Assembly: GCF_002355635.1 (NCBI RefSeq)
Contig: NZ_AP017558.1
Coordinates: 2,170,001-2,234,000, forward strand
Length of the DNA: 64,000 nt
From: Halopenitus persicus
GTDB lineage: Archaea; Halobacteriota; Halobacteria; Halobacteriales; Haloferacaceae
Direction of reading: 5' to 3'
Made by a program: the position numbers and the translations under genes. Shown here in pieces: positions 31,435 through 54,624 of this stretch. Under the pieces are notes generated by a model. That model was not told where the DNA came from and did not search any database. It was given only the letters and a program-made list of their open reading frames with translations. How positions within the stretch are numbered: position 1 is the first letter of the stretch; each line of letters opens with the position of its first letter.

Positions 31435-32088
31435 TTAAACCCGGCGCACGCGGATCGACTCCGCGACGGACTCCGGGAGGCTCTGCTCGCCGTCCGGCGT
31501 CCGTACCGTCACCATCCCGAAGGGGGCGACGTCGACCACCTCGAGCTCGGTGTCGGGCGTGATACCGGCGTCGGCGAGGTAGTCGAGCTCCTCCTCGTCG
31601 CGGTCGGACACGCGCGCGACGCGGACCGTCTCGCCGGCCTCGCAGTCGGCGAGCCGGACGGAGTCGTCGGTGACGGGCTGGAGGTCGGCGCCGGGGATGG
31701 GGTCGCCGTGGGGATCGACCTCGGGGTCGTCGAGGGCCGCGGCCACCCGGCGCTCGAAGGCCTCGGAGATGTGGTGTTCGAGCCGGTCGGCCTCCTCGTG
31801 GACCTCGCTCCAGTCGTAATCGAGCTGCTGGGCGAGAAACGCCTCGATCAGGCGGTGATGGCGGATCACCTCGAGCGCGACCGCCTCGCCCTCCGGAGTG
31901 AGTTCGACGCCGGTGTACGGCTCCCGCTCTAAGAGCCCGCGCTCGGCGAGTTTGCCGAGCATATCGGTGACCGTCGGCGGAGTCTTTCCCACCTCCTCGG
32001 CGATCGCCGAGGTGGACACCGGCGGACCGTCCTCGGTCTGGAGGACGTAGATCGCCTTGAGGTAATCCTCCATCACGTCGCTGAGCAT
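31435..32088 (-). CDS. DtxR/MntR-family metal-dependent transcriptional regulator
   Basis: A 217-residue regulator. Residues ~1-65 form the winged HTH (LSDVMEDYLKAIYVLQ, VSTSAIAEEVGKTPPTVTDMLGKLAERGLL). Residues ~66-130 are the dimerisation/metal domain with VIRHHRLIEAFL, EVHEEADRLEHHISE, which carry the usual His/Glu ligands. The C-terminal ~70 residues form an FeoA/SH3-like domain. It is the SirR/IdeR/MntR type that represses metal uptake when Fe2+ or Mn2+ is bound. It is convergent with the btuC-btuD importer, which could be a target if that importer carries iron. Confidence 0.88.
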   Translation of the reverse strand: MLSDVMEDYLKAIYVLQTEDGPPVSTSAIAEEVGKTPPTVTDMLGKLAERGLLEREPYTGVELTPEGEAVALEVIRHHRLIEAFLAQQLDYDWSEVHEEADRLEHHISEAFERRVAAALDDPEVDPHGDPIPGADLQPVTDDSVRLADCEAGETVRVARVSDRDEEELDYLADAGITPDTELEVVDVAPFGMVTVRTPDGEQSLPESVAESIRVRRV

Positions 32089-32192: not shown

Positions 32193-32918
32193 TCAGCGGT
32201 GGGTGGGTGACTCCGCGTTCGCGTCGCGAGCACCCTCGACGGTCTCCCGGACGGCCTCACAGCCCTCCTCGTGGAGCAGGTCGCCGACGACGACGACGTC
32301 GGCGTGGGTGCCCATCTCGCGGGCGGTCTCGTAGTCGTGCACCCCGCCGCCGTAAAAGAGCGTGGCCGAATCGAGCGCGTCGGCGGCGGCCGCGACGATC
32401 TCCGGGTCCCCGAAGGTGCCGGAGTACTCGAGGTAGACGATCTCCTGGCCGAACATCCGCTCGGCGATGCGGGCGTAGGCGGTCACGTCGTCGACCGAGA
32501 GGTCACAGTCCGCGTTCGTGTACTCGGCGACGGAGGCGTCCGGGTTCAACACGATGTACGCCTCGGTGGTGGTGCGGTCCCAGTCGAGGCCGTCCTCGAT
32601 CCGCACCCACTCGGCGTGCGCGCCGACGATCCAGAAGGGGTCGGCGGCGTTGAACACCGTCGGGATGAGGTAGCCGTCCAGCGCCGGCGAGTCGACGACC
32701 ACCGCCGGATTCGATGGTTCCTGATAGAGGGCGACGTCGTGGTCCGCACAGGCGTCGATCACGCGTTGCATCTTCTCCTCGGTCATCCCGAGCGTCCCCC
32801 CGATCTCGATCGCGTCCGTCCCGGTGTCGACCACGTCCTCGAACGTCTCGTCCCCGTACAGCTCCTTGTCGGGATCGACCTTCAGGACGTGATCCCACTC
32901 CGCCCACGGGTTCGTCAT
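32193..32918 (-). CDS. geranylgeranylglyceryl phosphate synthase
   Basis: A 241-residue TIM-barrel enzyme that joins sn-glycerol-1-phosphate and geranylgeranyl diphosphate, the first committed step of archaeal membrane lipids. Family segments are [48 protein letters not shown], and [29 protein letters not shown]; the last contains the phosphate-binding loops. Length matches haloarchaeal forms. It is transcribed alone. Confidence 0.92.
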
Positions 32919-33667: not shown

Positions 33668-36265
33668 CTACTGCGCCTTCGCCTGCCAGTCGCGAACCCG
33701 GTCCGCGCCGACGCCGTCGACGCGCTCGGCCAGGTCGTCGGGGTCCGCCTCGGTCAGCGCCGAGACGCCCTCGACGCCGGCGTCGGCCAGCTTCTCGGCG
33801 GTCTTCTCGCCGATCCCGTCGATCGCCTCGAGCTCCGAGCCGTTCTCGCGGGCCTGGAACTCCCGGTAGTTGCAGATCGGACAGCCAAGCTCCCAGGGTT
33901 CGTCGCCGGAGTGCACCCGGAGGTGCGGCAGGTCGTGTTCCTCGCAGGTCTCGTCGGTGATCTCGATCTCGCCGCGGCGGGGCAGCGGCAGCGAGTACTC
34001 GCAGTCGGGATAGCGCGTACAGCCGACCAGCCGGGAGCCCGTGCGGAGCTGCTTGATCGCGAGATCCCCGCCCTCCGTCTCGCCACACTCCGGACAGTCG
34101 CCGATGACCGTGTCCTCGGTCGCGTCGGCCTCGTCGGCCTGACACTGCGGGCAGCCGTGGACGAACGTCTTCCGCCCCGCGAGCATCTTCACGTGGTGGA
34201 GGTCGTGGTTCTCACAGACGTCATCCAGGATGAGCGGCTTTCCGGTGGAGGGCAACGGAAGGGTGTACTCGCAGTCGGGGTAGCCGTCACAGCCCACGAA
34301 GTAGGAGCCGTACCGGGACTTCCTGACCAGCAAGTCGGAGCCGCACTCCGGACAGGGACCGAGCCGCTTGTCCGCCTTGAGCGACGTCCGCAGGTGGTCG
34401 CCGACCTCCTCACGGGAGTCGGCGAGCGCCTCGAAGACGGCCGACAGCACCTCCCGGGACTCGGCGGTCACGTCCTCGTAGTCGGCCTCGCCGGCCGCGA
34501 TCGCCTGCATATCCGCCTCGAGCTGTGCGGTCATCTCCTCGGAGACGATCCGGTCGGCGAACTCCTCGGCGGCCTCGACGACCGCCTCCGCGAGTTTGGT
34601 GGGACGCGGCGGGTCGTTCTCGATGTAGCCGCGGTCGTAGAGCTTCTCGATCGTGTTGTGCCGGGTCGCCTTCGTCCCCACGCCGCGCGACTCCATCTCC
34701 TCGATGAGCCGGGACTGCCCGTACCGCCGCGGGGGCTGGGTCTCCTTGCCCTCGAGCTGCCGCTCGGTCAGCGCCAGCTCCTCGCCGACCTCGACGTCGG
34801 GAACGATCGTCTCGCTCGAGGACCGGTAGGGATAGACGTCGTGGTAGCCGGCCGAAAGCAGCCGCTTCCCGTTCGCCTTCAGCCGAAGCCCGCCGTCGGC
34901 AGCCAGGGAGGGTTCCTGGCCCGACTCGGCCGCCTCGGGGTCCCGAAGCGCTGCCCGGGGATCGGCCTCGGCGGCGATCGCGGTGGCCTCGTCGTTCGCG
35001 AGCGCGACCACGCGCAGGTGCTCCCAGGTGGCCGCGGGCGCGCAGGTGGCGAAGAAGCGGCGGACGACCAGCTCGTAGACCTCCCACTCGTCCTCGGAGA
35101 GGTCCGAGGCGGCGGGGATCTCGCCGGTCGGGTGGATCGGCGGGTGGTCGGTCGTCTCCTCGTCGCCCTCGGTCGGCTCGATCGCCTCCCGGTCGAGCAG
35201 CGTCTCGGCGTCCTCGCCGAAGCCGGTGTCGAGGAAGGCCTCGAGCAGCTCTCGGGGGTCCAGGTCGTCGGGATAGACGGTGTTGTCGGTTCGGGGATAG
35301 GTGATGTATCCCGCCGTGTACAGGTCCTCGGCGATCGACATCGCGCGCTGGGCGCCGTAGCCGAGCGACCCCGCGGCGCGGATGAACTGCGTCGTGTTGA
35401 ACGGCGCCGGGGGGTCGTCGGTGCGGGTTCGGCGCCGGACGTCGTCGACGGTCGCGCCGTCGGCCGCATCGAGGGCACGGGAAAGGGTCTCCGCGACGGT
35501 CTCGTCCCAGACCCGGTCCGCCTCGTTGCCGTCCGCGTCCAGCAGGAAGTAGCTCGCCTCGAAGGGGTCGCCGCCCGACTTGGTGAGGGCACCCGACAGC
35601 TCCCAGTAGGACTCGGGGTCGAACGCCTGGATCTCGCGTTCCCGGTCGACGATTAGCTTGAGCGTCGGACCCTGCACTCGGCCGACCGAAATGAAGTCGT
35701 CGCCAAGCTGGCCTGCCGACAGCGAGAGGAACCGGGTGAGCGCGGCGCCCCACATCAGGTCGATGACCTGTCGGGCCTCGCCGGCTGCCGCCAGGTCGAA
35801 ATCCAGGTCGTCGGGGTTCGCGAAGGCGTTTTGCACCTCGTTTTCGGTGATCGAGGAGAACCGGACGCGGTCGATGGGGACGTCCTCGTTCACCTCGCGG
35901 ACGAGCTCGTAGGCCTCCTTGCCGATCAGCTCGCCCTCCCGGTCGTAGTCGGTCGCGATGACCACGCGTGAGGCGTTGCGCGCGAGCCGCCGCAGGGCCA
36001 CGACGATGCCCTCCTGGGTCGGCTGCTTGCTGACCGGGGCGTCGATCAGCTCGACGGGCTCGACGTCGCGCCAGTCGTCGTACTCCGCCGGGAAGTCGAC
36101 CCCGACGACGTGGCCCGACAGGCCGATGCACCGCTTTCCGCCCCACTTGTAGACGTTCACGCCGTTCACCCGGTCGGACTCGGCGGACTCCCCGCTGAGG
36201 ACGTCCGCGATCCGCCGGGCGGCGTTGTCCTTCTCCGTGATGATCAGTTCGGGGCCGCGACTCAT
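33668..36265 (-). CDS. topA: DNA topoisomerase I (type IA) with zinc fingers and HhH tail
   Basis: An 865-residue enzyme that relaxes negative supercoils. The Toprim domain opens LIITEKDNAARRIADVLSG. The catalytic tyrosine lies in GYITYPRTDNTVYP (~residue 320). GTKATRHNTIEKLYDRGYI follows in the gate domain. Three C4-type zinc modules (CPECGSDLL with CDGYPDCEY; CPQCQ with CPECGET; CTRYPDCEY with CPICNYR) lie between ~640 and 810. A C-terminal HhH pair (LEAIDGIGEKTAEKLADAGV) ends the protein. Acidic insertions are typical of halophiles. Confidence 0.95.
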   Translation of the reverse strand: MSRGPELIITEKDNAARRIADVLSGESAESDRVNGVNVYKWGGKRCIGLSGHVVGVDFPAEYDDWRDVEPVELIDAPVSKQPTQEGIVVALRRLARNASRVVIATDYDREGELIGKEAYELVREVNEDVPIDRVRFSSITENEVQNAFANPDDLDFDLAAAGEARQVIDLMWGAALTRFLSLSAGQLGDDFISVGRVQGPTLKLIVDREREIQAFDPESYWELSGALTKSGGDPFEASYFLLDADGNEADRVWDETVAETLSRALDAADGATVDDVRRRTRTDDPPAPFNTTQFIRAAGSLGYGAQRAMSIAEDLYTAGYITYPRTDNTVYPDDLDPRELLEAFLDTGFGEDAETLLDREAIEPTEGDEETTDHPPIHPTGEIPAASDLSEDEWEVYELVVRRFFATCAPAATWEHLRVVALANDEATAIAAEADPRAALRDPEAAESGQEPSLAADGGLRLKANGKRLLSAGYHDVYPYRSSSETIVPDVEVGEELALTERQLEGKETQPPRRYGQSRLIEEMESRGVGTKATRHNTIEKLYDRGYIENDPPRPTKLAEAVVEAAEEFADRIVSEEMTAQLEADMQAIAAGEADYEDVTAESREVLSAVFEALADSREEVGDHLRTSLKADKRLGPCPECGSDLLVRKSRYGSYFVGCDGYPDCEYTLPLPSTGKPLILDDVCENHDLHHVKMLAGRKTFVHGCPQCQADEADATEDTVIGDCPECGETEGGDLAIKQLRTGSRLVGCTRYPDCEYSLPLPRRGEIEITDETCEEHDLPHLRVHSGDEPWELGCPICNYREFQARENGSELEAIDGIGEKTAEKLADAGVEGVSALTEADPDDLAERVDGVGADRVRDWQAKAQ

Positions 36266-36353: not shown

Positions 36354-37592
36354 TCAGATCCCCTGTCCCATCAGGTGGCTGCGCAGCACGTCCGGCGTCT
36401 TGAGTCCGGCCTCGGTGTTGAGCAGGACCACGGTCTCGTCGCCCTCGAAGAATCCGTCCTCGGCCAGCTCCCAGGCGCCCGCCGGCGCGGCGCCCCCGGC
36501 GGCGCCCATCTCGAGGATCTCGTGTTGGGCGACCGTCACGGCGCTCTCGAGGATCTCGTCGTCGCCGGCGGTGACGCCGCGCCCGCCGCTCTCGCGGACC
36601 GCCTCGACCGCCCACGCGCCGCCGGCGGGATCGGCGATCTCCAGCTCGCCGCAGATCGTGTCGGGGGTATCCCACGGCTCCGGCTCGTCGATCCCACGTT
36701 CGAGCGCGGCGGCGATCGGGGCACAGCCCTCGGCCTGGGCCGCGACGAGCCGCGGCCGGGCGTCGATCAGTCCGAGGGTTTCGAGCTCCCGGAAGCCCTT
36801 GGCGATCCCCACGACGAACTCCCCGCTGCCGGTCGGGACGACGACCACGTCCGGTGCGGTCCACCCGAGATCGGCGGCGAGCTCGTAGGCGACCGTCTTC
36901 GCGCCCTCGTGTCGGAACGGCGTCGCGAACTCCGTCAGGTCGGTGTAGTCGGTCGCGAGCTGCTCGTCGACCGCCGCGACCGCGTCCGGGTGTCGTCCCC
37001 CGACGACGCGCATCTCGCCACCGTGGACGTTCGTCATCGCCTTGTTCGAGAACGCACACCGGGAGGGGACGAACGCGTACGACCGCAGCCCCGTCCGCCC
37101 CGCGTAGGCGGCCATCGACTGGCCCGCGTTTCCGGGGGAGGCGCAGACGAGCGGTTCGACGACGCCGGGGTCGTCCGCGTCCTCGTCGGAGTCCGTGTCC
37201 GCGTCCAGTTCCGAAACGGCCGTCATCGTCACCGACAGGCCGCGGTCGAGGGCGGTCCCGGTCGGATTGCGCGCCTCGTCCTTTATAAACACCTCCGCGA
37301 CGTCGAGCTCGTCCGTCAGCCGGTCGGCCGCGACCAGCGGCGTGCCGCCCTCCCGCGCCGACAGCGCCGACGCGGCCGGAAACGGAAGGAGCGCGTCGAA
37401 CCGCCACATCCCGTCCGTGGCGGTCCCTTCAACGGTGGCAGCCTCCTCGATCGCGGTCGGATCCACGGCGTCGTAGTCGTAGGTCGGGTCGAGCGGTCCG
37501 CCGCAGTCTGGACAGCGGGCCGCGGCCGCGAGGTCGTGGGCGGCCCCGCAGTCGTGACACGCGAGTCCGATAAAGGCGTCAGTCGTCTCCAT
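36354..37592 (-). CDS. threonine-synthase homologue lacking the PLP lysine
   Basis: A 412-residue fold-type II PLP-enzyme homologue. It starts with a zinc ribbon (Cys12, Cys15, Cys27, Cys30), as in haloarchaeal threonine synthases. The cofactor-lysine region normally reads N-P-T-G-S-F-K-D-R-G; here residues 109-118 are NPTGTALDRG, with Leu115 at the lysine position. Other parts are kept: SPGNAGQSMAAYAGR, VVVPTGSGEFVVGIAKGFREL and VVLLNTEAGLKTPDVL. Schiff-base chemistry is therefore unlikely, so the protein may bind a ligand, regulate, or act differently. A genuine threonine synthase is expected elsewhere in the genome. Confidence 0.8.
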   Translation of the reverse strand: METTDAFIGLACHDCGAAHDLAAAARCPDCGGPLDPTYDYDAVDPTAIEEAATVEGTATDGMWRFDALLPFPAASALSAREGGTPLVAADRLTDELDVAEVFIKDEARNPTGTALDRGLSVTMTAVSELDADTDSDEDADDPGVVEPLVCASPGNAGQSMAAYAGRTGLRSYAFVPSRCAFSNKAMTNVHGGEMRVVGGRHPDAVAAVDEQLATDYTDLTEFATPFRHEGAKTVAYELAADLGWTAPDVVVVPTGSGEFVVGIAKGFRELETLGLIDARPRLVAAQAEGCAPIAAALERGIDEPEPWDTPDTICGELEIADPAGGAWAVEAVRESGGRGVTAGDDEILESAVTVAQHEILEMGAAGGAAPAGAWELAEDGFFEGDETVVLLNTEAGLKTPDVLRSHLMGQGI

Positions 37593-37664: not shown

Positions 37665-38459
37665 TCACGGCAACAGGTCGGCCGGCGCCCCGGCGAGGCC
37701 GGCCAGCGCGTCGGCCTCGACGTGGTGGAGGTCGCCGGGGATCACCAGCAGGTGGAGGGGATCGCCGAACGATCGGTCGGCCAGCGCGGAGAGGCGGTCG
37801 GCGGCCACCACCGCGTCCGGGCTGCCGGCACGAGCGACGACGACGCCGAGGACGTCCGCCCAGTCGTCGGCGAGCAGAGCGGCGGCGTGATCGGCGGTCA
37901 TATACTCCTCGTGGTCCGGATCGGCGCCGCGGGGGCCAGTACCGACCTTGATGTCGAGGTAGACGATGGTGTGAAGTCCGCGCTCGCGGTTGGCCTCGAT
38001 GGTCTCGATCACGCTGTCGGGAACCCCCTCCCCGCCGTGGGCGTACGGAAACGGCAGGGTGGCCGCCTTGCCGAACCGGTAGTTCTGCAGTCCGGTCAGC
38101 GAGGAGGCGGCCGATTGGGCGGTCACTCCGTGGATCACGCGCGTATCGATCCCCCGATCCTCGGCACGGAGCCGGAGGTCGGTGTGGGTCGTCGAGACCA
38201 TCGTGTCGCCGGCGGTCAGGAACGCGACGTCGCCGGACGCGGCCGCCGTGAGGATCGGTTCGGGGTCCTGCTCGACGCCGGCCCGGTCCCGAACCTCGAT
38301 CGCCGTCCCGTGGTACGCCTCGAGGTCCGCGAGGTCGGCCCCGACGAGCCGGCTCGTGTAGAACTCCGCGAACGCACGGTCGGCCGCCCGTAACGCGTCC
38401 CGTCCCTCGACGGTGATCGATCGCTCGTCGTGGAGTCCGAGCCCGATGAAGGTGAGCAT
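37665..38459 (-). CDS. dph5: diphthine synthase
   Basis: A 264-residue SAM-dependent methyltransferase acting on elongation factor 2 in diphthamide synthesis. It opens MLTFIGLGLHDERSITVEG and contains GDVAFLTAGDTMVSTTHTDLRLRA, VIHGVTAQSAASSLTGLQNYRFGKAATLPFPY and YLDIKVG, all typical of Dph5. ATG 38459 was chosen over the upstream in-frame start because a TATA box (38485-38492) lies 26 bp away, predicting a leaderless mRNA. Confidence 0.94.
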   Translation of the reverse strand: MLTFIGLGLHDERSITVEGRDALRAADRAFAEFYTSRLVGADLADLEAYHGTAIEVRDRAGVEQDPEPILTAAASGDVAFLTAGDTMVSTTHTDLRLRAEDRGIDTRVIHGVTAQSAASSLTGLQNYRFGKAATLPFPYAHGGEGVPDSVIETIEANRERGLHTIVYLDIKVGTGPRGADPDHEEYMTADHAAALLADDWADVLGVVVARAGSPDAVVAADRLSALADRSFGDPLHLLVIPGDLHHVEADALAGLAGAPADLLP

Positions 38460-38646
38460 ACCGACCCCTCGGCGTCGCGATCGCTTATAAATCCCGCACT
38501 CGGACTGCGGCGGCGGCGCGAGCCCGACCCCGTCCGACGGACGCAACACGCCGACGGGAGACCGCCGAGGTAGCGGAGGTTTTCCCCGATACCTTTATTC
38601 AGCCGTGGTCTAACATTCAGACGAACGACACGAGTCGCTTGAGACG
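38460..38646. promoter_or_regulatory. divergent promoter region of dph5 and the coiled-coil protein gene
   Basis: ATTTATAA on the minus strand (38485-38492) is the dph5 TATA box. On the plus strand CCTTTATTC (38592-38600) is a weaker TATA candidate for the gene at 38647, leaving a leader of ~20 nt. Nothing else recognisable is present. Confidence 0.55.
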
Positions 38647-39858
38647 ATGGCATCAGACCCTGACCGTATGACCGATTCCCCGTCCGACACCGAGCTGTTC
38701 GCCGAGTGGGTCTCCGAGACAGCGGAGTCCCGCGGCGTCACCGAGCAGGAGCTGCTGAACCAGCTCATCTCCTCGTTTTGGGTGCTCGACGAGCTCGACG
38801 GGATCCGCGGTGAGGGTGGGACCCTCGGGGAGGTCGGGAGACCGGAGGAATCCGACCCGACCGAATCCGACGTCCTGGGATTCGCCGACCCGACGCACGA
38901 TCCCGAATCCGGGACTGACGAGGCCGACGGGACCGGCGAGAACGGCGAGACCGACGGGACCGGCGAGAACGGCGAGACCGACCGGACCGGCGAGAACGGC
39001 GAGACCGACCGGACCGGCGAGACTGGTGACGCTGTCGCGCCCGACGACGCCGCCGGCGATGGCAGCGCCGCCCCCGGCGAAGTCGACGTCGACCTCCAGA
39101 ACGTCCTCCACGGGCTCCTGGAAACGCTCCGTGCCGATTCACCCGAGACGGACGGCTCGAACGACCTGCGCCGGCAGATCCACGACCTCTCGCTCGACGT
39201 CGAGGACCAGCGCCGACGTCACGAGCGCTACACCGACCGGATCTCCGACGACCTCACCCGCATCAACGGGCGCCTGACCACGCTCGAGGAGGACGCAGAC
39301 GACTTCGTCACCGAGGCGGACCTCGCGCGGTACGCCACCGAGGACGCCCTCGATCGCGAGATCGAGGGGCTCGAAGACGAGGTCAACGGCGGGTTCGACG
39401 AGCTGGAGGGCTGGATCGACGAGGAGTTCGACGAGATCGAGGCACTGTTCGAACACCTCCTCGACCGGATCGACGACCTCGATGGCCGGATCGACGCGGT
39501 CGACGATCGGGTCGACGACGTCGGGGCGACGGTCGAATCGACGGTCGAATCCGAGCTCGAGTCGATTCGATCCAAGCTCGCCGAGAACGAGCGACTCGCC
39601 GCACTCAGGCGTGACGCGATCGCCGACGGGATCCGGTCGGCCGACTGCGCGGGTTGCGGCGAAACGGTCGATCTCGCGATGCTCGACGCACCCCAGTGTC
39701 CGAACTGTACCGCGACGTTCCGGGACGTGGAGCCGGCTGGATGGAACCCCTTCGGGTCCCCGACGCTGCAGACGGGAACGCCGGATCCCCCCTTCGACGC
39801 GGCCGACGGCGCTCGCGTCGAGGAACCACACGACGACCCTTCCGACGGTGACCGCTGA
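38647..39858 (+). CDS. acidic coiled-coil protein with C-terminal zinc ribbon
   Basis: A 403-residue protein not assigned to a named family. The N-terminal ~55 residues are helical (ELFAEWVSETAESRGVTEQELLNQLISSFWVLDEL). A low-complexity spacer with tandem nine-residue GTGENGETD units follows (~94-130). Residues ~165-325 form a long coiled coil (DVEDQRRRHERYTDRISDDL, RIDDLDGRIDAVDDRVDDVG). A zinc ribbon closes the fold (CAGCGE and CPNCTA, ~333-356). ATG 38647 or 38668 could be the start. The next gene begins 81 bp later on the same strand and has a similar acidic-linker style, so they may act together. Confidence 0.6.
   Translation: MASDPDRMTDSPSDTELFAEWVSETAESRGVTEQELLNQLISSFWVLDELDGIRGEGGTLGEVGRPEESDPTESDVLGFADPTHDPESGTDEADGTGENGETDGTGENGETDRTGENGETDRTGETGDAVAPDDAAGDGSAAPGEVDVDLQNVLHGLLETLRADSPETDGSNDLRRQIHDLSLDVEDQRRRHERYTDRISDDLTRINGRLTTLEEDADDFVTEADLARYATEDALDREIEGLEDEVNGGFDELEGWIDEEFDEIEALFEHLLDRIDDLDGRIDAVDDRVDDVGATVESTVESELESIRSKLAENERLAALRRDAIADGIRSADCAGCGETVDLAMLDAPQCPNCTATFRDVEPAGWNPFGSPTLQTGTPDPPFDAADGARVEEPHDDPSDGDR
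38932..39030. repeat. in-frame 27 bp tandem repeat in coiled-coil protein gene
   Basis: About three and a half 27 bp units encode GTGENGETD, GTGENGETD, then RTGENGETD and RTGETGD. Differences between units are few, showing recent or homogenised duplication. Confidence 0.85.
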
Positions 39859-39939: not shown

Positions 39940-41721
39940 ATGAGCGACGACTCGAACGGAACGGACGACCCGGATCACGACGGGACCTCCGACTCGACGA
40001 GCGACGGGAGCACTGCCCGCGAGGACGACGCCGGGCGACGCGGGAGCCGGTTCCGCGATCTCCGAACGAAAGTGCAGAACGGTGAATCGGTGACGGACGA
40101 ACCGACGTCGGCCGAACCGACGTCCGGGGCTGAACGAACGACGGAGTCCGAATCCACCGCAGCGTCCGAATCCACGATCGAAAGCGATCCGGAACGACGC
40201 GTCGACGACCCCGCGACGGACGCCGATGCCGGTCGAGGCGCTGACGACGAGGAGGAGTGGGAGTGGTTTCAGGGTGACGCACCCCCCGAGGAGGAACGAC
40301 TGACGGGAGGCGGTCACACCGCGGGGACCGCCGGGAAGGGCCCCGGTGCGGACTCACCCGTCGACGACGAGGACGACGCTGCGACTGGATCGGGAGCCCC
40401 GGAACCGCAACGGGAGTCGGAAGCGGACGTGGCTGGCCCCGAAACCGACGATCGGCTCTGGAACGCGGCCGATTCGAACACCGACGACGATCACGCCACT
40501 GGAACCGATCTGGGAGTCGCTTCCGAGGCCGACGCACCCGATGCCGAGTCCGACCCACCCGATGCCGAGTCCGACCCACCCGATGCCGAGTCCGACCCAC
40601 CCGATGCCGAATCGACGACCGACTCGGCGTCGGCGGTCGACGCGGCGGAATCCGAACCGTCGAGCCGCGACGGCATCACGATCGATCCGGTCGAGGAGGA
40701 CACGGCCGAACCGAGCGACACGGCCGAACCGACGACCGGATCCAACGAGCACGACCGAACCGACGATGCTCCGGACGCGGGCACACCGGATGAGCGTGCC
40801 GGATCGTCGAAGCGATCGGGACGGCTTTGGAGCGATCCGACGGCGGTGGCCGGGCGGTCCACGTCCGATCGGGAGTCACCGGCAGACGCACCGTCAGATC
40901 GGAACTCGGCCGAGTCGGGAGCCGCGAACGCCGGGACGCCGTCCGATCCCACAGCTTCCGACGGCGTCGACTCGGGCGAGGAACTCGAATCGACGACCGG
41001 GACTCCCTCCTCGGGCGACCCGGAGGTATGGGACGGCACCGACCACGAGGCCGACGCCGGACCGGCGGCGCCCGAGTCGGACGCCGAGGCGGCTGACCTG
41101 CCCGCGTTCGACGTGCTCGATCCGGGGTCGAACGCGCTGGTGCTCGATTCGCTCTCGGGGCCCGTCTCGGAGACGGCCTGCGGACGGCTGCTCGACGCCG
41201 GCGATGCTGGTACCCCGGCGGGCGCCTCCGACGCCCGAAACGTCCTGATCGTGGCCATCGAGGAGCCGGCGGCGGAGCGGATCGACGTGTGTCACCGGGC
41301 CGGCATCGACGCCGGCGAGATCGCCGCGATCGAGGTGGGCAGCCACGGCGGCCCCCGGTCGGTCGCCTCCGAGACGACCGGCGGCGGGCAGTCGGTCTCG
41401 CTCACGCGCGTCTCGAAGCCATCGAATCTCTCGAAGCTCGGCATTCTGATCACCAAACAGCTCTCGGAGTGGGAGACCGACGACCGGCCGGTCGTCTTCT
41501 GTCTCCACTCGCTGACCGCGCTCCAGCAGTACGTGTCCGACGAGAAGCTGTTCCGGTTCCTCCACGTGTTGACCCGACGGCTCTCCGCAAGCGGAGGCCG
41601 TGCGCACTTTCATATGGACCCGGATGCCCACCACGAGATGGTCGTCGGCACCCTCCGGCCCATCTTCGACGTCATCGTTCGGATCGGTCCGGATGGAACG
41701 GTCGACGTGGAACACGAGTGA
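39940..41721 (+). CDS. long acidic protein with C-terminal RecA/KaiC-like (DUF7504-type) domain
   Basis: A 593-residue protein. The first ~385 residues are disordered, Asp/Glu/Ser/Thr-rich, with four tandem copies of a seven-residue unit (PPDAESD). The C-terminal ~205 residues are globular: NALVLDSLSGPVSETACGRLLDAG, RNVLIVAIEEPAAERIDVCHRAG, VSLTRVSKPSNLSKLGILITKQL, RPVVFCLHSLTALQQYVSDEKLFRFLHVLTRRL and AHFHMDPDAHHEMVVGTLRPIFDV. This matches haloarchaeal RecA/KaiC-fold domains labelled DUF7504, in which a Walker A lysine is absent. Found near signalling genes; role unknown. Confidence 0.65.
   Translation: MSDDSNGTDDPDHDGTSDSTSDGSTAREDDAGRRGSRFRDLRTKVQNGESVTDEPTSAEPTSGAERTTESESTAASESTIESDPERRVDDPATDADAGRGADDEEEWEWFQGDAPPEEERLTGGGHTAGTAGKGPGADSPVDDEDDAATGSGAPEPQRESEADVAGPETDDRLWNAADSNTDDDHATGTDLGVASEADAPDAESDPPDAESDPPDAESDPPDAESTTDSASAVDAAESEPSSRDGITIDPVEEDTAEPSDTAEPTTGSNEHDRTDDAPDAGTPDERAGSSKRSGRLWSDPTAVAGRSTSDRESPADAPSDRNSAESGAANAGTPSDPTASDGVDSGEELESTTGTPSSGDPEVWDGTDHEADAGPAAPESDAEAADLPAFDVLDPGSNALVLDSLSGPVSETACGRLLDAGDAGTPAGASDARNVLIVAIEEPAAERIDVCHRAGIDAGEIAAIEVGSHGGPRSVASETTGGGQSVSLTRVSKPSNLSKLGILITKQLSEWETDDRPVVFCLHSLTALQQYVSDEKLFRFLHVLTRRLSASGGRAHFHMDPDAHHEMVVGTLRPIFDVIVRIGPDGTVDVEHE
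40531..40614. repeat. four in-frame 21 bp tandem repeats
   Basis: Units start at 40531, 40552, 40573 and 40594; the second and third are identical and the outer ones differ by a few bases. They encode D(A/P)PDAES repeats in the disordered part of the protein. Confidence 0.9.
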
Positions 41722-47310: not shown

Positions 47311-48678
47311 TCACGACCCCGACTCGAGCACGATCTCGCTCGCCCGCCGGCCGCTGGCGAGCGCCCCTTGAATGGACGACCACTCGGTGTACTCGCCCGC
47401 GAGCACGACCGGTCCCGCGGGCGCGGTCGGGTCCGGTAACGTCTCCCGAAACCCGGGCGGCTGGGCGAACTGCGCGAACGGGGTTCGGTCGGTCGCGAGG
47501 GTTCGCAGCCCGTCGAGCGAGCGCTCCGGGAACCACGAGGCGAGCGCGTGCTCGGTCTCGGCCGCGAGCGTCTCGTCATCACGATCGAACGCTTCGTCGC
47601 CGACGAAGGTGGCCGCAAGCAGCGTTCGGTCGTCCGGGGCGTACTCCGGGGCGACCGCGCCGAGCGGGACGACCGTGTTCGGGCGCTCGCCGCCCGCGTT
47701 CAACAGGATTCGGGGACCGGTTCCGAGCGAACGGCCGGGCGGAAGCGTGTACCACTGCGTGATGCAGCCGACGCCGTCCGTCGGGATCGACTCGACGCCC
47801 GTGAGCCGGCGCGCCTCCGGCGGCGACGTCGCGACGACCGCCACGTCGGCGACCGTCTCGGAACCGCCCGCGGTATGCAGTCGAACGCCGCCAGTGCTCG
47901 CGTCCGCGTCATCGACCTCGAGTTCCTCGACCGGCGTTTCGAGGCGGATCGTGCAGCCGGCGTCCCGCGCTCGCTCGGCGAGCTGGCGGGTGATCGCACC
48001 CATTCCCGTCGCCGGTACGACCGTCCGGCCGTCGCTCATCGCGCGGAAGGTCTCGACGAAGACGCTCGCGGACGTCGACAGCGATCGATCGAGGGTGATG
48101 CCACCGTAAAAAGGGGCGATGAACCGGTCCAGATATGCCTCCGAGAAGCCCCGGTCCCGGAGGAACGACCGGATGGATTCGTCCGGTCCGGCTGTCGGTG
48201 TCGATCCGGCCGATGACGTGGAGCCTGCTGCCGAGCCGGAGCGCAGGCCGCCGACCGGACCTGCGCCCGCCGCCGCCCCGCGCAGCAGCTCGCGTTTCAG
48301 CCGGAGGGTTCGGAGCTTGTCTCCGAGCGTGATCTCCCGCGAGAACGCAGCTTCGAGGGCCGCGCTCGGGTCACGGAGGGGATCGGCGATCGTCGATCGG
48401 GATCCGGGGCGGCAGATCACGGCCCCGGGGGCGAACGCCCGGAGGTCGAGCGCCTCGAGGTCGAGCTCGGCGCGGGCGGCCGGATACGAGTCGAAGAGCA
48501 CCTGAAACCCGCGGTCGATCGTGAAGCCGTCGACGGTTCGGCTTCGAACGCGTCCGCCAACCGCGTCCTCGCGTTCCAGAACCGTCACGTCGGCGCCCGC
48601 CTCCCCGAGCCGTGCCGCCGCCACGAGCCCCGCGGGGCCGGCGCCGACGACGGCGACCACCCTCTCGGTGTCGTTCAT
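47311..48678 (-). CDS. FAD-dependent amine-oxidase/desaturase-like oxidoreductase
   Basis: A 455-residue flavoprotein with an N-terminal ADP-binding motif (VVGAGPAGLVAAARLGEAGADVTVLERE) followed by GGRVRSRTVDGFTIDRGFQV, the pattern of the protoporphyrinogen-oxidase/phytoene-desaturase superfamily. The central MGAITRQLAERARDAGCTI and C-terminal AGEYTEWSSIQGALASGRRASE complete the FAD site. Substrate is uncertain: a carotenoid, polyprenyl or amine compound is possible. Insert GGLRSGSAAGSTSSAG is a flexible loop. Divergent from nothing; it ends 52 bp after the J-domain gene on the opposite strand. Confidence 0.82.
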   Translation of the reverse strand: MNDTERVVAVVGAGPAGLVAAARLGEAGADVTVLEREDAVGGRVRSRTVDGFTIDRGFQVLFDSYPAARAELDLEALDLRAFAPGAVICRPGSRSTIADPLRDPSAALEAAFSREITLGDKLRTLRLKRELLRGAAAGAGPVGGLRSGSAAGSTSSAGSTPTAGPDESIRSFLRDRGFSEAYLDRFIAPFYGGITLDRSLSTSASVFVETFRAMSDGRTVVPATGMGAITRQLAERARDAGCTIRLETPVEELEVDDADASTGGVRLHTAGGSETVADVAVVATSPPEARRLTGVESIPTDGVGCITQWYTLPPGRSLGTGPRILLNAGGERPNTVVPLGAVAPEYAPDDRTLLAATFVGDEAFDRDDETLAAETEHALASWFPERSLDGLRTLATDRTPFAQFAQPPGFRETLPDPTAPAGPVVLAGEYTEWSSIQGALASGRRASEIVLESGS

Positions 48679-49851: not shown

Positions 49852-52800
49852 CTATCGAACGCGACGATACGTCGCGAAAGCGAACAGCACTATGCTGATC
49901 CCCGACGCGATCGATTCGACGTCGATCCGATCCCGAATCGCCTCGAACGCTGCGAGGAGGCTACCGGTCGGATCCGCAGCGAGCGTGCCGACGACCGATT
50001 CCACGTTCCTACCGACCACCTCGACGACACCGTGGCCATCACCGACGGTGCCCGCTTCGCCACTCGCATCCCCGGATCCATCGGCCGGCCGGTCGACCTC
50101 GTCAGCCCCCGAACTTCCACCACCGGCACCGCTACCGGCACCGCTCGTCCGTCCCTCGCCAGCGGCGGGGCTGTCGACCGCGGCCGGCGGCGTCCCGGTC
50201 ATCGCCTCAGTGGCCGGATCGGCAGCCCGGATCCGGCCCTCAACGGACGGCCGCGATTCGACCCCGTCGAGGCCGTGGACGGACACGCGATACCGATCCC
50301 CGACGGTCAGCGCGGAGAGATCGACGGTTGCCGACCACGTCCCGTCGGCGGCGACCCGAACCGACTCGTTGCGGCCACGAAACTCCGACTCCGACGCGGC
50401 GATCGGCCGAATTCGAACCGTGAACTCGGTTCCCGGCGCGAGCGTGGTCGAGCCGGCGAACGACTGGTCCGGCGCGGCGTGAGCGTCGTACGGGTCTGCC
50501 GCGAACCGGACGTCGCGTTCGACCACGGTGAATCCGGTCGTTGCCTCGGAGCCGCCCGAGAGCGGCGTGATCTCGAGGGCCGATGGCGGCGTCTCGATCC
50601 CGGACGGGACCGTTGAGAGGCCGTACGAGGGGTGGCGTTCCAGGGACACGAGAGGACGAAGGTGGCCGGGACGGTCGGCGGCGGTCCCGACACGATGCCC
50701 CTGGCGGCGCGGCTCGACGATCCGGGGCCAGCCGACCGGGTCGGTCCCGCGGTCGGCCGCTCGCTGGATCCGCGGATCGGTGACGGAGAAGCCGAGGGAG
50801 ATCGCCGGTTCGGCGGCCGGATCGAGGATGGAGCCGTCCTGGAACCGGAGTTCGGCGGTGTCCACGAGCAGCGTGACGCGGTCGCGGTCGTGATCGGGAA
50901 CCACCTCGATCGTGCTCGCGCCGGGAGCGATCGTCCGGGGCGAACGGTTCACGCCGTCGTCGTCGAGCGTCTCGGTCAGATCGAGGTCGATCGGCGGGCT
51001 CTCACCCGCGTCGTCGTGGAGATCGCCGGTCCCGGTACTGGTTGTAACGTCGGTCCCGGTCCCGTCGATCGGCGACCAGTCGGGACCCGTAAGGGCGCGG
51101 AACCGCTCCGTGGCCCCCGCGTCGGGGCGGCGTTCGCCCGCCAACGCCAACAGCCCGGAGACGCTCGCGGAGTCGATCCGAACGACTGCGACGTCGCCGT
51201 ACGCGACCGTCTCGCTCCGCGTGACCGTTCCTTCCGCGCGGGCCGTCGAGAGCGCCGCAACCGGCGAGTCGGCAGCGAGTATCGACCGGGCCGTCCCTGC
51301 CGAGGTGGTCCAGCTGGAGGCGGTTCCGGAGTCCGCGGGCGCAAGCGTGAGCACACCGACGTCGGCCGGGTTGGCGACGGCCGTCCGGGGGTGCTGCGCG
51401 GTCGAGACGGTGACGGGGTACTCGCCGGGAGCTAGCGCGTCGGATCGGAGGCTCTGGTCGGTTTGCGGGTCGAACTCGATCGCTGCACCGGCGGCGGCCG
51501 ACGCCGGATCGAGCACGACCACCGAGCCGGCGGTCGTGCCCGCCGTGTAGGTGTTGAACCGGACCGTCACCGCGTCGGCGTCGCCGAAGGAGGTGATCCG
51601 GGCGGTCGCCTCGTACCCCGTGGTCGTTTCGTTCCCGATCACGAGCGCCCCGCCATCGGCGCGTTCGTCCGCCGTAACCGTGATCTCGACGACGCCGCCG
51701 GTGGTCGCGTCGACGATCGGCTCGGCAAGCGAGACCGATCCGGGACCGACGATCCCGCGGTCAGGACCGGCAACCGTCCCGTTGTCGCTGCCGTTGACAG
51801 TGGCGCCACCGTCATTCACGGGCCCCGCCCAGCCTCCGCTACCGCCTCCGCCACCGCCGCTCCCGCTGCTCCCGCCGCCGGACGTTCCCGTTCCGGTTCC
51901 GCCGTCGGACGCTCCCGAATCGGACTCGTCGGCCGCCGACCCGTCCTCGTCAGTCGATTCCTCGGAGTCCATCCCGTCAGTGTCGTCGGTCGTGTTCGTT
52001 TCATCAGTCGTCTCGGTCGTGTTCGTCCCGTCGTCGGTCACGGTCGTTGCGTCCGCGGTCGAAAGCGAGAGGGTGGCATTCGCAGTTCCGTCGGTGGCTG
52101 ATTCGGTCGTAACGATCGGATGCGTCCCATCGGCAAGCGGCTCGAGCGCGTCGTCATCGAACGTGACCGTGACGGAGCGTGACTCGCCGGCGTCGAGGCC
52201 GTCGACGGTCGCGGTCCGACGCACCGATCCCGACCCGAGATCGACGGTCACGGACACCGGATCGGTCGCGTTCGCGCCGCCGACGTTCGTGATCGTCCCC
52301 GCGATCGGAAGCGATCGGCTCCCGTTGCGCTCGTGGTCGTACGTCGTCTCGTTCAGCGTGAGCGCGTAGTGGGGCGGGTCGACGACCTTGGTCGTCCCGC
52401 TCACTCGGTCGTGGTCGCCGCGCACCGTCACGTCGAGCGTCTCGCCGGCCGACGCGTTCTCGAGATCGTGGGTCAGTTCGACGGTCTCCGTAGCCCCCGG
52501 TGCGACCGTCACCGATCGGGTGTCCGAAACCGACCCATTCACGACGAGTTCGACCGTGTCGTTATACGTCGACTTGCCAGTATTATTTAAATTAATATTA
52601 TATATGCCAAATTCTTGGTTAATGTCGACTGAGTTAGTAATATTTGTATCTAGAGTAGAGCCAACAACTTCAATAACCGATGTTGATTCCATCTCTGATA
52701 TTTTATCTCCAGTAGTAATTCCAGAATCACCAGAAACACCCACAGTATAATTCCTGGTAGATTCATCTAAAATAATGTCGCCACTAGTAGTTCCAAGTGT

Positions 52801-53595
52801 GAATGTAGCAACATTATCGGGAATTGACTTATTTAAATAGGTACGATCAACACTCCCATTATTGGAGTCATCAATACCAAGAGTCGCCTCCGTAGTCGAG
52901 TTACCAGTCTCAGCAACCACCGTCGTTTGAGTGTTATTTGTTAGATCAATCTCGGATGTAGATATATTAGTAATTGTTCGATCACGTATGTTTAATTCAA
53001 GGTTAACTTCATCCCGTCCAGTGAGATCGTTAGTGAGTGAGTTAGCACCAGTCTGTAAAAGGACATCTACACCATATCTGCCCGGATTAGATGGATTCGT
53101 CAGTTTACTTCCGGATTTTTGTTGGTTGGTATAATCACCACCATCATTGAGATATACGATTAATAGTCCGTCATCACGGATCTCAAGTGGTTGGCTAAAG
53201 TTCAGTAAAAGACGGCTGCCGTCTACATCAATGGTGTCAAAATCTTGTTGGGTTGAATAGATAACCTCAGTATAGATATCGTGCTCCGTCATTGTACCTT
53301 CATAATAGACTGTAATATCTGAAGAGGAGATGTTTCTGTCAAACACTGGCTCATTATAATCGAGTACTATGTCGCTTAGGTTAGATGTCTTAGATGATGA
53401 ATTAAAGTCAGTGATAATCTCGTGCTGAGAATCTTTATTTATATTATCACTATATGCAGTAATCGAGCTATTATTCGTGTCGATCGCCGTCGATTTACCG
53501 GCGAACCCACCCGGAACAACGCCCGCCGTAACGATGATCGCGATGAGTAGAACGGTCCGTATCGCCGATCGAGTTGTAAGGGTCTGCCTCGTCAT
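49852..53595 (-). CDS. large surface (S-layer-type) glycoprotein with AT-rich N-terminal coding segment
   Basis: A 1247-residue secreted protein. After a signal peptide (MTRQTLTTRSAIRTVLLI..., cleaved ~33) comes an N-terminal ectodomain (~39-343) dense in N-x-S/T sequons. Two CARDB-like domains follow (~345-500), then a Thr/Asp/Gly/Ser linker. The C-terminal region has domains like those of BGTF-type S-layer glycoproteins (AVTVRFNTYTAG; FAGSTTLAPGTEFTVRIRP; RVAADGTWSATVDL). It ends with a short hydrophobic helix and RRVR, without a PGF motif. ATG 53595 was chosen because the upstream extension needs a TTG. Codons for residues ~39-343 are AT-rich, unlike the rest. Confidence 0.8.
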   Translation of the reverse strand: MTRQTLTTRSAIRTVLLIAIIVTAGVVPGGFAGKSTAIDTNNSSITAYSDNINKDSQHEIITDFNSSSKTSNLSDIVLDYNEPVFDRNISSSDITVYYEGTMTEHDIYTEVIYSTQQDFDTIDVDGSRLLLNFSQPLEIRDDGLLIVYLNDGGDYTNQQKSGSKLTNPSNPGRYGVDVLLQTGANSLTNDLTGRDEVNLELNIRDRTITNISTSEIDLTNNTQTTVVAETGNSTTEATLGIDDSNNGSVDRTYLNKSIPDNVATFTLGTTSGDIILDESTRNYTVGVSGDSGITTGDKISEMESTSVIEVVGSTLDTNITNSVDINQEFGIYNINLNNTGKSTYNDTVELVVNGSVSDTRSVTVAPGATETVELTHDLENASAGETLDVTVRGDHDRVSGTTKVVDPPHYALTLNETTYDHERNGSRSLPIAGTITNVGGANATDPVSVTVDLGSGSVRRTATVDGLDAGESRSVTVTFDDDALEPLADGTHPIVTTESATDGTANATLSLSTADATTVTDDGTNTTETTDETNTTDDTDGMDSEESTDEDGSAADESDSGASDGGTGTGTSGGGSSGSGGGGGGSGGWAGPVNDGGATVNGSDNGTVAGPDRGIVGPGSVSLAEPIVDATTGGVVEITVTADERADGGALVIGNETTTGYEATARITSFGDADAVTVRFNTYTAGTTAGSVVVLDPASAAAGAAIEFDPQTDQSLRSDALAPGEYPVTVSTAQHPRTAVANPADVGVLTLAPADSGTASSWTTSAGTARSILAADSPVAALSTARAEGTVTRSETVAYGDVAVVRIDSASVSGLLALAGERRPDAGATERFRALTGPDWSPIDGTGTDVTTSTGTGDLHDDAGESPPIDLDLTETLDDDGVNRSPRTIAPGASTIEVVPDHDRDRVTLLVDTAELRFQDGSILDPAAEPAISLGFSVTDPRIQRAADRGTDPVGWPRIVEPRRQGHRVGTAADRPGHLRPLVSLERHPSYGLSTVPSGIETPPSALEITPLSGGSEATTGFTVVERDVRFAADPYDAHAAPDQSFAGSTTLAPGTEFTVRIRPIAASESEFRGRNESVRVAADGTWSATVDLSALTVGDRYRVSVHGLDGVESRPSVEGRIRAADPATEAMTGTPPAAVDSPAAGEGRTSGAGSGAGGGSSGADEVDRPADGSGDASGEAGTVGDGHGVVEVVGRNVESVVGTLAADPTGSLLAAFEAIRDRIDVESIASGISIVLFAFATYRRVR

Positions 53596-53859
53596 AGTGG
53601 ACGAACCCACACCGGGGCGCAGCGATATGCGCCGCGACGCCGGCCACCACGTCCGACGAACGTCGCCGATATCACCACTACCTAGGGAGTTCAATTAATA
53701 GCAATAGGGAGTTAATAAAGCATTTATTTAAACAGTCGATTATTGCAAAAAGTGAGCCTGCGGCCGAGCAGTGAATGTCACTCAAATATGTAATCTCAAA
53801 AACTAAATACGGATCGAGGTGAACAAACGAAAACGGGACAGATCGGAAGAACGAGGGCG
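53596..53859. promoter_or_regulatory. promoter region of the surface-glycoprotein gene and VOC downstream flank
   Basis: A likely TATA box TTTATTTAAA (53723-53732) lies ~125 bp before the surface-protein start, implying a leader of ~100 nt, as is known for some S-layer genes. The stretch 53695-53830 is A/T-rich. No extra reading frame is convincing. Confidence 0.5.
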
Positions 53860-54624
53860 CTACTCCCGGTTCAGGATCTCGATCTCGTGGCCGTCCTGGT
53901 CGGTCGTGAACGCGTACCGGTCGTCACAGGACTCGGGGTCGCGGTAGTCGGTCGCCCCCCGCTCCATCAGCGTCTCCCAGTCGTTCTCGAGGTCGTCGGT
54001 ACGGACGCAGAGGTGTCCCCAGGAGTCGCCCAACTCGTAGCTGCGGCCGTCGTAGTTGTAGGTGAGCTCGACCGACATCGCCTCCTCGGCGGCGTCGGCG
54101 GGCTCCATGAAGTAGTTCGCGAACGAGTCGGATTCCCAACGGCCGGCCGGTTCGTACTCGAACTTGCGCGCCCAGAAGCCGATCGCCTCGTCGGCGTCCT
54201 CGACGCGGATCATCGTGTGGTCGAGGCTCCACTTCGCGCCGTGGTCGCGCTTGACGAGCTCGATCTCGTGGCCGTCCGGATCCTTCACGAACGCGTACCG
54301 GTCGTCACAGGACTCGGGGTCGCGGTAGTCCTCGACGCCGTTGGCCAGTAGCTCGTCGTAGGCGTCCTGGAGGCCGTCCTCGGGAACCCGAACCGCGATG
54401 TGACCCCACGCGTCGCCCATCTCGTAGGTCCGGTCGTCGTGGTTGTAGGTGAGCTCCAGGAGCGCGCCGTCCTCGTGGCCGCCCGGGGGCCCGAGATAGA
54501 CGTTCGTGAACGTGTCGGCCTCCCACCGGCCCGTCTCCTCGTAGCCGAAGTTGGTTCGGTACCACTCGAGGCTCTCCTCGAGGTCCTCGACGCGGATCAT
54601 CACGTGATCGAGCAGCGAATTCAT
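53860..54624 (-). CDS. tandem VOC/glyoxalase-fold protein
   Basis: A 254-residue protein of two homologous VOC modules (~1-125 and ~130-254). Each has DH(V/T)MIRVED, ELTYN, GHIAVR/GHLCVR and DGHEIE(L/I), with His and Glu residues placed as in glyoxalase I metal sites. It may be a lactoylglutathione lyase-like enzyme acting on a haloarchaeal thiol adduct (gamma-glutamylcysteine is the usual haloarchaeal thiol) or a dioxygenase-fold relative. The segment DYRDPESCDDRYAF is identical in both modules, down to a 42 bp DNA identity (53908-53949 and 54289-54330). Confidence 0.85.
   Translation of the reverse strand: MNSLLDHVMIRVEDLEESLEWYRTNFGYEETGRWEADTFTNVYLGPPGGHEDGALLELTYNHDDRTYEMGDAWGHIAVRVPEDGLQDAYDELLANGVEDYRDPESCDDRYAFVKDPDGHEIELVKRDHGAKWSLDHTMIRVEDADEAIGFWARKFEYEPAGRWESDSFANYFMEPADAAEEAMSVELTYNYDGRSYELGDSWGHLCVRTDDLENDWETLMERGATDYRDPESCDDRYAFTTDQDGHEIEILNRE

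Follow-up and report, generated by a model that had tools for sequence, protein, structure and literature searches.

A threonine-synthase homologue without the PLP lysine is conserved across Haloferacaceae and is probably a pseudoenzyme

What is left of a PLP-dependent enzyme when the lysine that holds the cofactor is gone and the gene is kept? The question is raised by an open reading frame in the window, the 64,000-nucleotide stretch of DNA analysed here. The frame encodes a threonine-synthase homologue with leucine at position 115, where related enzymes carry the PLP lysine; we call homologues with and without this residue lysine-bearing and lysine-less. We consider it fairly probable that the protein is a pseudo-threonine synthase without PLP, retained for its part in binding or regulation. 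The gene and its relevant sites are:

36354..37592, minus strand: lysine-less threonine-synthase-like open reading frame with a PALP fold, 412 aa, open from ATG to stop
37503..37559, minus strand: N-terminal zinc-ribbon cysteines 12, 15, 27 and 30, intact here and partly lost in the family
37281..37283, minus strand: codon 104, the lysine of FIKDE
37248..37250, minus strand: codon 115, CTC (Leu), where lysine-bearing homologues have the PLP lysine
37128..37130, minus strand: Asn155, kept here; D, A, E, P or I in some other lysine-less rows
36900..36902, minus strand: codon 231, Ala; Lys in 26/26 lysine-bearing rows and 4/4 bacterial rows
36816..36833, minus strand: former phosphate loop, residues 254-259, TGSGEF instead of TGGGVG; Glu258 does not vary in Haloferacaceae
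36645..36647, minus strand: Glu316 replacing Gly, invariant in Haloferacaceae lysine-less copies
36357..36386, minus strand: C-terminal tail LRSHLMGQGI, common to native-locus lysine-bearing orthologues and absent from bacterial homologues

The protein scores 201 bits with Pfam PALP, whose cut-off is 35. Its best NCBIfam model is the PRK08197-type threonine synthase NF006050, at 271 bits against a cut-off of 303, and it also stays below the cut-off of TIGR00260 (ThrC; 135.1 against 167.1 bits). Threonine synthases are the top Foldseek matches in the PDB (E ~2e-22) of its predicted model (20 sequences, mean pLDDT 78.6, pTM 0.85), in which pLDDT falls below 50 at residues 177-190, 308-320 and 403-412, stretches that include Glu316 and the tail. 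In a HMMER alignment Leu115 falls on the lysine of NPTGSFKDRG in the Mycobacterium tuberculosis threonine synthase 2D1F; the motif reads RNPTGTALDRG where fold-II PLP enzymes have NPTG-SFKD-RG. This alignment and the CTC codon confirm the leucine that a sequence-only reading of the locus had placed at the PLP-lysine site. With PRK08197-type threonine synthases (2D1F, 2ZSJ, 2C2B) the protein shares homology over the whole length, the PALP domain and fold, the NPTG and DRG loops and the N-terminal zinc ribbon, but it has neither the Schiff-base lysine of a fold-type II PLP enzyme (Pfam PALP) nor Lys231, its glycine-rich phosphate loop reads TGSGEFV instead of the TGGGVGL of lysine-bearing proteins, it carries Glu316, and it scores below the cut-off. 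It has ~53-55% identity with lysine-bearing haloarchaeal orthologues (for example L100, L102 and L108) and shares their neighbours and C-terminal tail; they differ from it in a complete PLP site, an invariant GGGVGL loop and Gly316, and L100 passes the PRK08197 cut-off at 387 bits.

The whole active site has changed together, not lysine 115 alone. When 26 lysine-bearing rows were compared with 57 lysine-less rows, alongside four bacterial rows, 94 sites were conserved at 96% or more in the former, and 38 of these were still conserved at 90% or more in the latter, among them Lys104, NPT, DR, Arg227 and CAP. From fold-II structures we take positions 155, 254-259, 316 and 393 to be PLP contacts, Asn155 being presumably the asparagine at PLP O3' and position 316 presumably facing the PLP ring. 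The PLP-site positions that drift in lysine-less copies only are 256, 259, 252, 114, 155 and 393. Lys231 is absent from all 145 lysine-less copies (106 from Haloferacaceae and 39 others) and Gly256 is retained in just one of them, being gone from 106/106 in Haloferacaceae; Lys231, Gly256 and Gly316 are present in 30/30 lysine-bearing copies outside Haloferacaceae, leaving out an odd pair described below. Haloferacaceae have lost Gly256, Gly259 and Gly316 of the lysine-bearing site, and Glu258 and Glu316 are invariant in their 106 lysine-less copies. Outside this family Glu316 occurs in 16 of 39 lysine-less copies, and Glu258 in 4 of 19 other rows and in none of nine in a family labelled f7.

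The window protein itself retains Asn155, Thr393 and NPTG. The sequence-only reading had described the Asn and Gly loops and the zinc ribbon as preserved. Asn155 is indeed there but varies family-wide, and the Gly loop has gone from TGGGVG to TGSGEF; all four zinc-ribbon cysteines are present in the window protein, but Cys27 and Cys30 are retained in just 19 of 29 Haloferacaceae rows. Cysteines of the ribbon (residues 12-30) are gone from about a third of Haloferacaceae rows. Lys104, which had been named as a possible substitute PLP lysine, is conserved in lysine-bearing and lysine-less rows alike; it stood beside the Schiff-base lysine already before the loss and is therefore no replacement. 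Judged from the residues replaced, PLP binding and PLP catalysis would both have been lost. Given Asn155, Thr393 and the 38 of 94 kept sites, the pocket may still bind something PLP-like.

How widespread is the lysine-less form, and is it under selection? Of the Haloferacaceae genomes searched, 170/170 have a match at E <= 1e-60, a level at which the two forms are not told apart. Where site 115 was read, 106 of 107 Haloferacaceae genomes (27 genera) carry a lysine-less copy; the remaining one is G001, 70% complete, in which only a lysine-bearing copy was read. Among 71 genomes of eleven other families, picked by rank and diversity and not randomly, 39 copies are lysine-less and 32 have the lysine. 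The residue at 115 in the Haloferacaceae lysine-less copies is Leu in 78, Tyr in 12, Val in 6, Phe in 4, Ile in 3, His in 2 and Thr in 1. Family-wide, 13 residues other than Lys occur there, so no single substitute has been selected; Haloferacaceae mostly have Leu, other families mostly Thr, Ala, Val or Arg. Nei-Gojobori dN/dS values are 0.01-0.23 for 19 lysine-less pairs and 0.09-0.23 for nine lysine-bearing pairs. Between the window and Halopenitus persicus dN/dS is 0.18 for this gene and 0.08-0.11 for topA, dph5 and a third neighbour; the lysine-less gene evolves somewhat faster than its neighbours, yet is clearly constrained. These are the marks of a pseudoenzyme: the catalytic lysine is lost and the gene is conserved under purifying selection. 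The conserved haloarchaeal group that was to be looked for is thus found, and the frame, read earlier as intact and not decaying, is open over 412 aa and belongs to a constrained gene.

Lysine-bearing and lysine-less genes occupy the same loci, which indicates that the lysine was lost in place from a lysine-bearing orthologue. An ancient duplication would require that reciprocal losses had recurred at a single locus. In trees rooted with bacterial lysine-bearing homologues, built with active-site columns dropped and, for the second tree, with L227 omitted, the lysine is ancestral. The lysine was probably lost more than once. On either tree parsimony requires four changes of the lysine label, of which two f7 rows, L183 and L191, account for one. 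The f7 lysine-less rows nest with f7 lysine-bearing rows in the careful tree (fork 100/98); for the lysine-less rows from outside f7, the quick tree gives a single clade (SH-aLRT 94) that the careful tree does not resolve. A single lysine-less clade is not rejected by an AU test that included L183 (p-AU 0.216). None of 200 bootstrap trees (0%) has a branch that sets the lysine-less rows apart from all others, but L183 was counted as an outsider there and the figure has little weight. A monophyletic lysine-less group, proposed earlier as a check, is compatible with the AU test, though several losses are likely. A first FastTree, rooted on distant paralogues and with lysine-less rows basal, was replaced; its outgroup was too distant.

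The pair L183/L191 is odd in having TSKDRG, with Lys at 115, together with Ala231, Thr or Ala at 256, and Glu316. Both rows fall within the lysine-less group, and their codon 115 is AAG where relatives have ACG or ACC (Thr). Their lysine looks like a base change at a freely varying position, not a restored enzyme.

The C-terminal tail, with the consensus RSHLM[GS][QK]G[IV] and small variations, is found in native-locus copies of both forms. Among 195 distinct sequences it is borne by 120 lysine-less and 30 lysine-bearing ones. The 33 lysine-bearing sequences without it comprise 11 haloarchaeal ones (L135, L140-L144, L154, L166, L196, L229 and L230), 18 ThrC-type outgroup rows and 4 bacterial rows, and no tail was found in the displaced lysine-bearing copies that were read. 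Another 12 sequences were counted as lacking both lysine and tail: 8 outgroup rows whose motif was missed by the expression, the broken copies L130 and L134, L131 with RSHLIGQGK and L171 with RSRLEARPR at this place. By this distribution the tail appears older than the loss of the lysine and persists after it; chiefly for this reason we propose a second function that is not catalytic. A DNA pattern for the tail has its one genomic match in this gene, and a targeting signal shared with other proteins was rejected.

We propose that the ancestor was a haloarchaeal PRK08197-type enzyme with a complete PLP site and the haloarchaeal tail. Lys115 and Lys231 would have been lost and Gly256 of the phosphate loop replaced in Haloferacaceae and in parts of other families, and Haloferacaceae would also have fixed glutamates at 258 and 316. 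Glu316 would fill the cofactor site, since its position is the one we take to face the PLP ring. Fold, tail and both loops, NPTG and DRG, would have been retained throughout, which would make the second, non-catalytic job older than the loss. Most likely the protein would bind a partner with its conserved surface and its tail, and a small ligand sitting in the emptied pocket may gate this binding. Binding or regulation as the function is our guess, and leans on the tail and the constraint; the ligand-binding, regulatory or scaffold role suggested by the sequence-only reading is a reasonable candidate.

The surroundings of the gene are variable. Its neighbours in the window are:

37665..38549, minus strand: dph5 (diphthine synthase), upstream; adjoins only in two Halopenitus loci among those examined
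33668..36265, minus strand: topA (DNA topoisomerase I), downstream; adjoins only in the same two loci
32193..32918, minus strand: PcrB-family protein, found downstream in family f7 too
31435..32088, minus strand: DtxR/MntR-type metal-dependent regulator, often found downstream of the gene elsewhere
47311..48678, minus strand: FAD oxidoreductase; in other genomes its relatives lie immediately upstream

A general operon with dph5 or topA was rejected (2/36 lysine-less loci, both Halopenitus). By their Pfam and NCBIfam names the usual neighbours are an amine-oxidase-like FAD protein, an MntR/DtxR-type regulator, GDT1 and LysE. Near 36 lysine-less loci the FAD oxidoreductase is found 23 times, DtxR 18, LysE 16 and GDT1 11; near 14 lysine-bearing loci the counts are 5, 3, 3 and 3, the 14 including one odd-pair locus (L268) and five displaced Haloferacaceae second copies (L258-L261 and L270) that have none of the four nearby. 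In the window these neighbours are displaced, with the PcrB and DtxR-type genes ~4-5 kb downstream and the FAD oxidoreductase ~11 kb upstream. The four are common to lysine-bearing and lysine-less loci in several families, and in f7 PcrB lies downstream at lysine-bearing (L251, L252) and lysine-less loci (L247, L248, L267). The lysine-less group therefore does not have the gene context of its own that the sequence-only reading had envisaged, and so variable a context (DtxR at 18/36 lysine-less loci) names no pathway.

Several other readings have to be weighed against a PLP-free pseudoenzyme. The boldest is that the pocket has been repurposed: a site that once held anionic PLP and phosphate would now bind a cation (a divalent metal, a basic amino acid or an amine), as a sensor or for a new PLP-independent reaction. 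It rests on the two glutamates, invariant in 106/106 Haloferacaceae lysine-less copies from which Lys115 and Lys231 are gone, and the occurrence of Glu316 in 16/39 copies elsewhere agrees with it, as do frequent neighbours that are a metal-dependent regulator, a divalent-cation antiporter (GDT1) and an exporter (LysE). The same neighbours stand at lysine-bearing orthologues, however, so the context does not track the new acids; Glu258 is scarce outside Haloferacaceae (4/19 rows, 0/9 in f7), and the Glu side chains are placed with low confidence in the model. We regard a cation-binding pocket as possible but rather unlikely. Much the same tentative standing belongs to a wider proposal in which threonine synthases died in place repeatedly across the haloarchaea, their pocket made acidic or their core plugged, with tail-borne regulation tied to the control of metal or amino-acid export. 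Catalysis might also have survived with PLP or PMP bound non-covalently and another residue doing the work; ColD reportedly does so with His. Asn155, Thr393 and NPTG are retained in the window protein and two Haloferacaceae rows have His at 115, but residue 115 shows no chemical trend and Gly256, Gly259 and Gly316 are lost in Haloferacaceae, which makes this very improbable.

The protein could instead join an active threonine-synthase paralogue in a mixed oligomer and contribute the non-catalytic subunit, the part that SPTLC1 plays beside SPTLC2. The fold is kept, and among five other matches in the window genome L002-L004 have intact active sites: L002 (35% identical) is a true ThrC, passing TIGR00260 at 298.6 bits against 167.1, and L003 and L004 also resemble threonine synthases and carry SFKDR. 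The closest active type is the tail-less lysine-bearing copy that several Haloferacaceae genomes have besides the lysine-less gene (L140-L144, L196, L135); the examined tail-less second copies (L258-L261, L270) sit away from the native neighbours. However, no lysine-bearing member of the protein's own subfamily, the tail-less type included, was found in the window genome, so that type cannot be a general partner, and the remaining paralogues are just 33-38% identical. Such an oligomer seems unlikely. A sequencing error at the site or a decaying pseudogene has practically no probability, being refuted by the 106 lysine-less genomes, by purifying selection and by the open frame in the window. 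The few broken copies elsewhere that might speak for it, with stops in L137 (G100) and split frames in L130 (G133) and L134 (G146), are possibly late decay or assembly errors.

A PLP-free pseudo-threonine synthase would have parallels in the eukaryotic SPTLC1, a subunit of serine palmitoyltransferase, and AZIN1, the ODC antizyme inhibitor, which have other PLP fold types and known partners. Passages of one paper describe both as PLP-enzyme homologues that gained a non-enzymic function (PMC2748086). The likeness to the present family would lie in the function gained. A search of CC-licensed PMC text found no report of a lysine-less threonine-synthase family, nor of a binding partner or regulatory effect for it. 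Relatives in public records are named "threonine synthase", and the lysine-less members likely are too; such naming would place false threonine synthases in metabolic models of most Haloferacaceae genomes. Cells have apparently kept this pseudoenzyme for another job after it lost the lysine that holds vitamin B6. Orthologues with and without the lysine at one locus, with a tail older than the loss, make a natural experiment that separates the catalytic from the second job, and it is accessible in Haloferax volcanii. There we infer HVO_0818 to be the orthologue from the names of its neighbours, HVO_0817 being called a flavin-containing amine oxidoreductase in a passage of PMC4300041 and HVO_0819 SirR in a passage of PMC11349517. 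No paper naming HVO_0818 was found in CC-licensed PMC text. PMC4300041 has transposon data for thrC3 (HVO_2969), presumably a different gene.

Two further observations concern the rest of the window. On the plus strand, the proteins encoded at 38647-39858 and 39940-41721 are both acidic and contain short internal repeats (GENGETD- and PPDAESD-like); DUF7504 forms the end of the second. At 52001-54000 the GC content is 0.505 against ~0.69 around it, and this stretch is perhaps acquired DNA.
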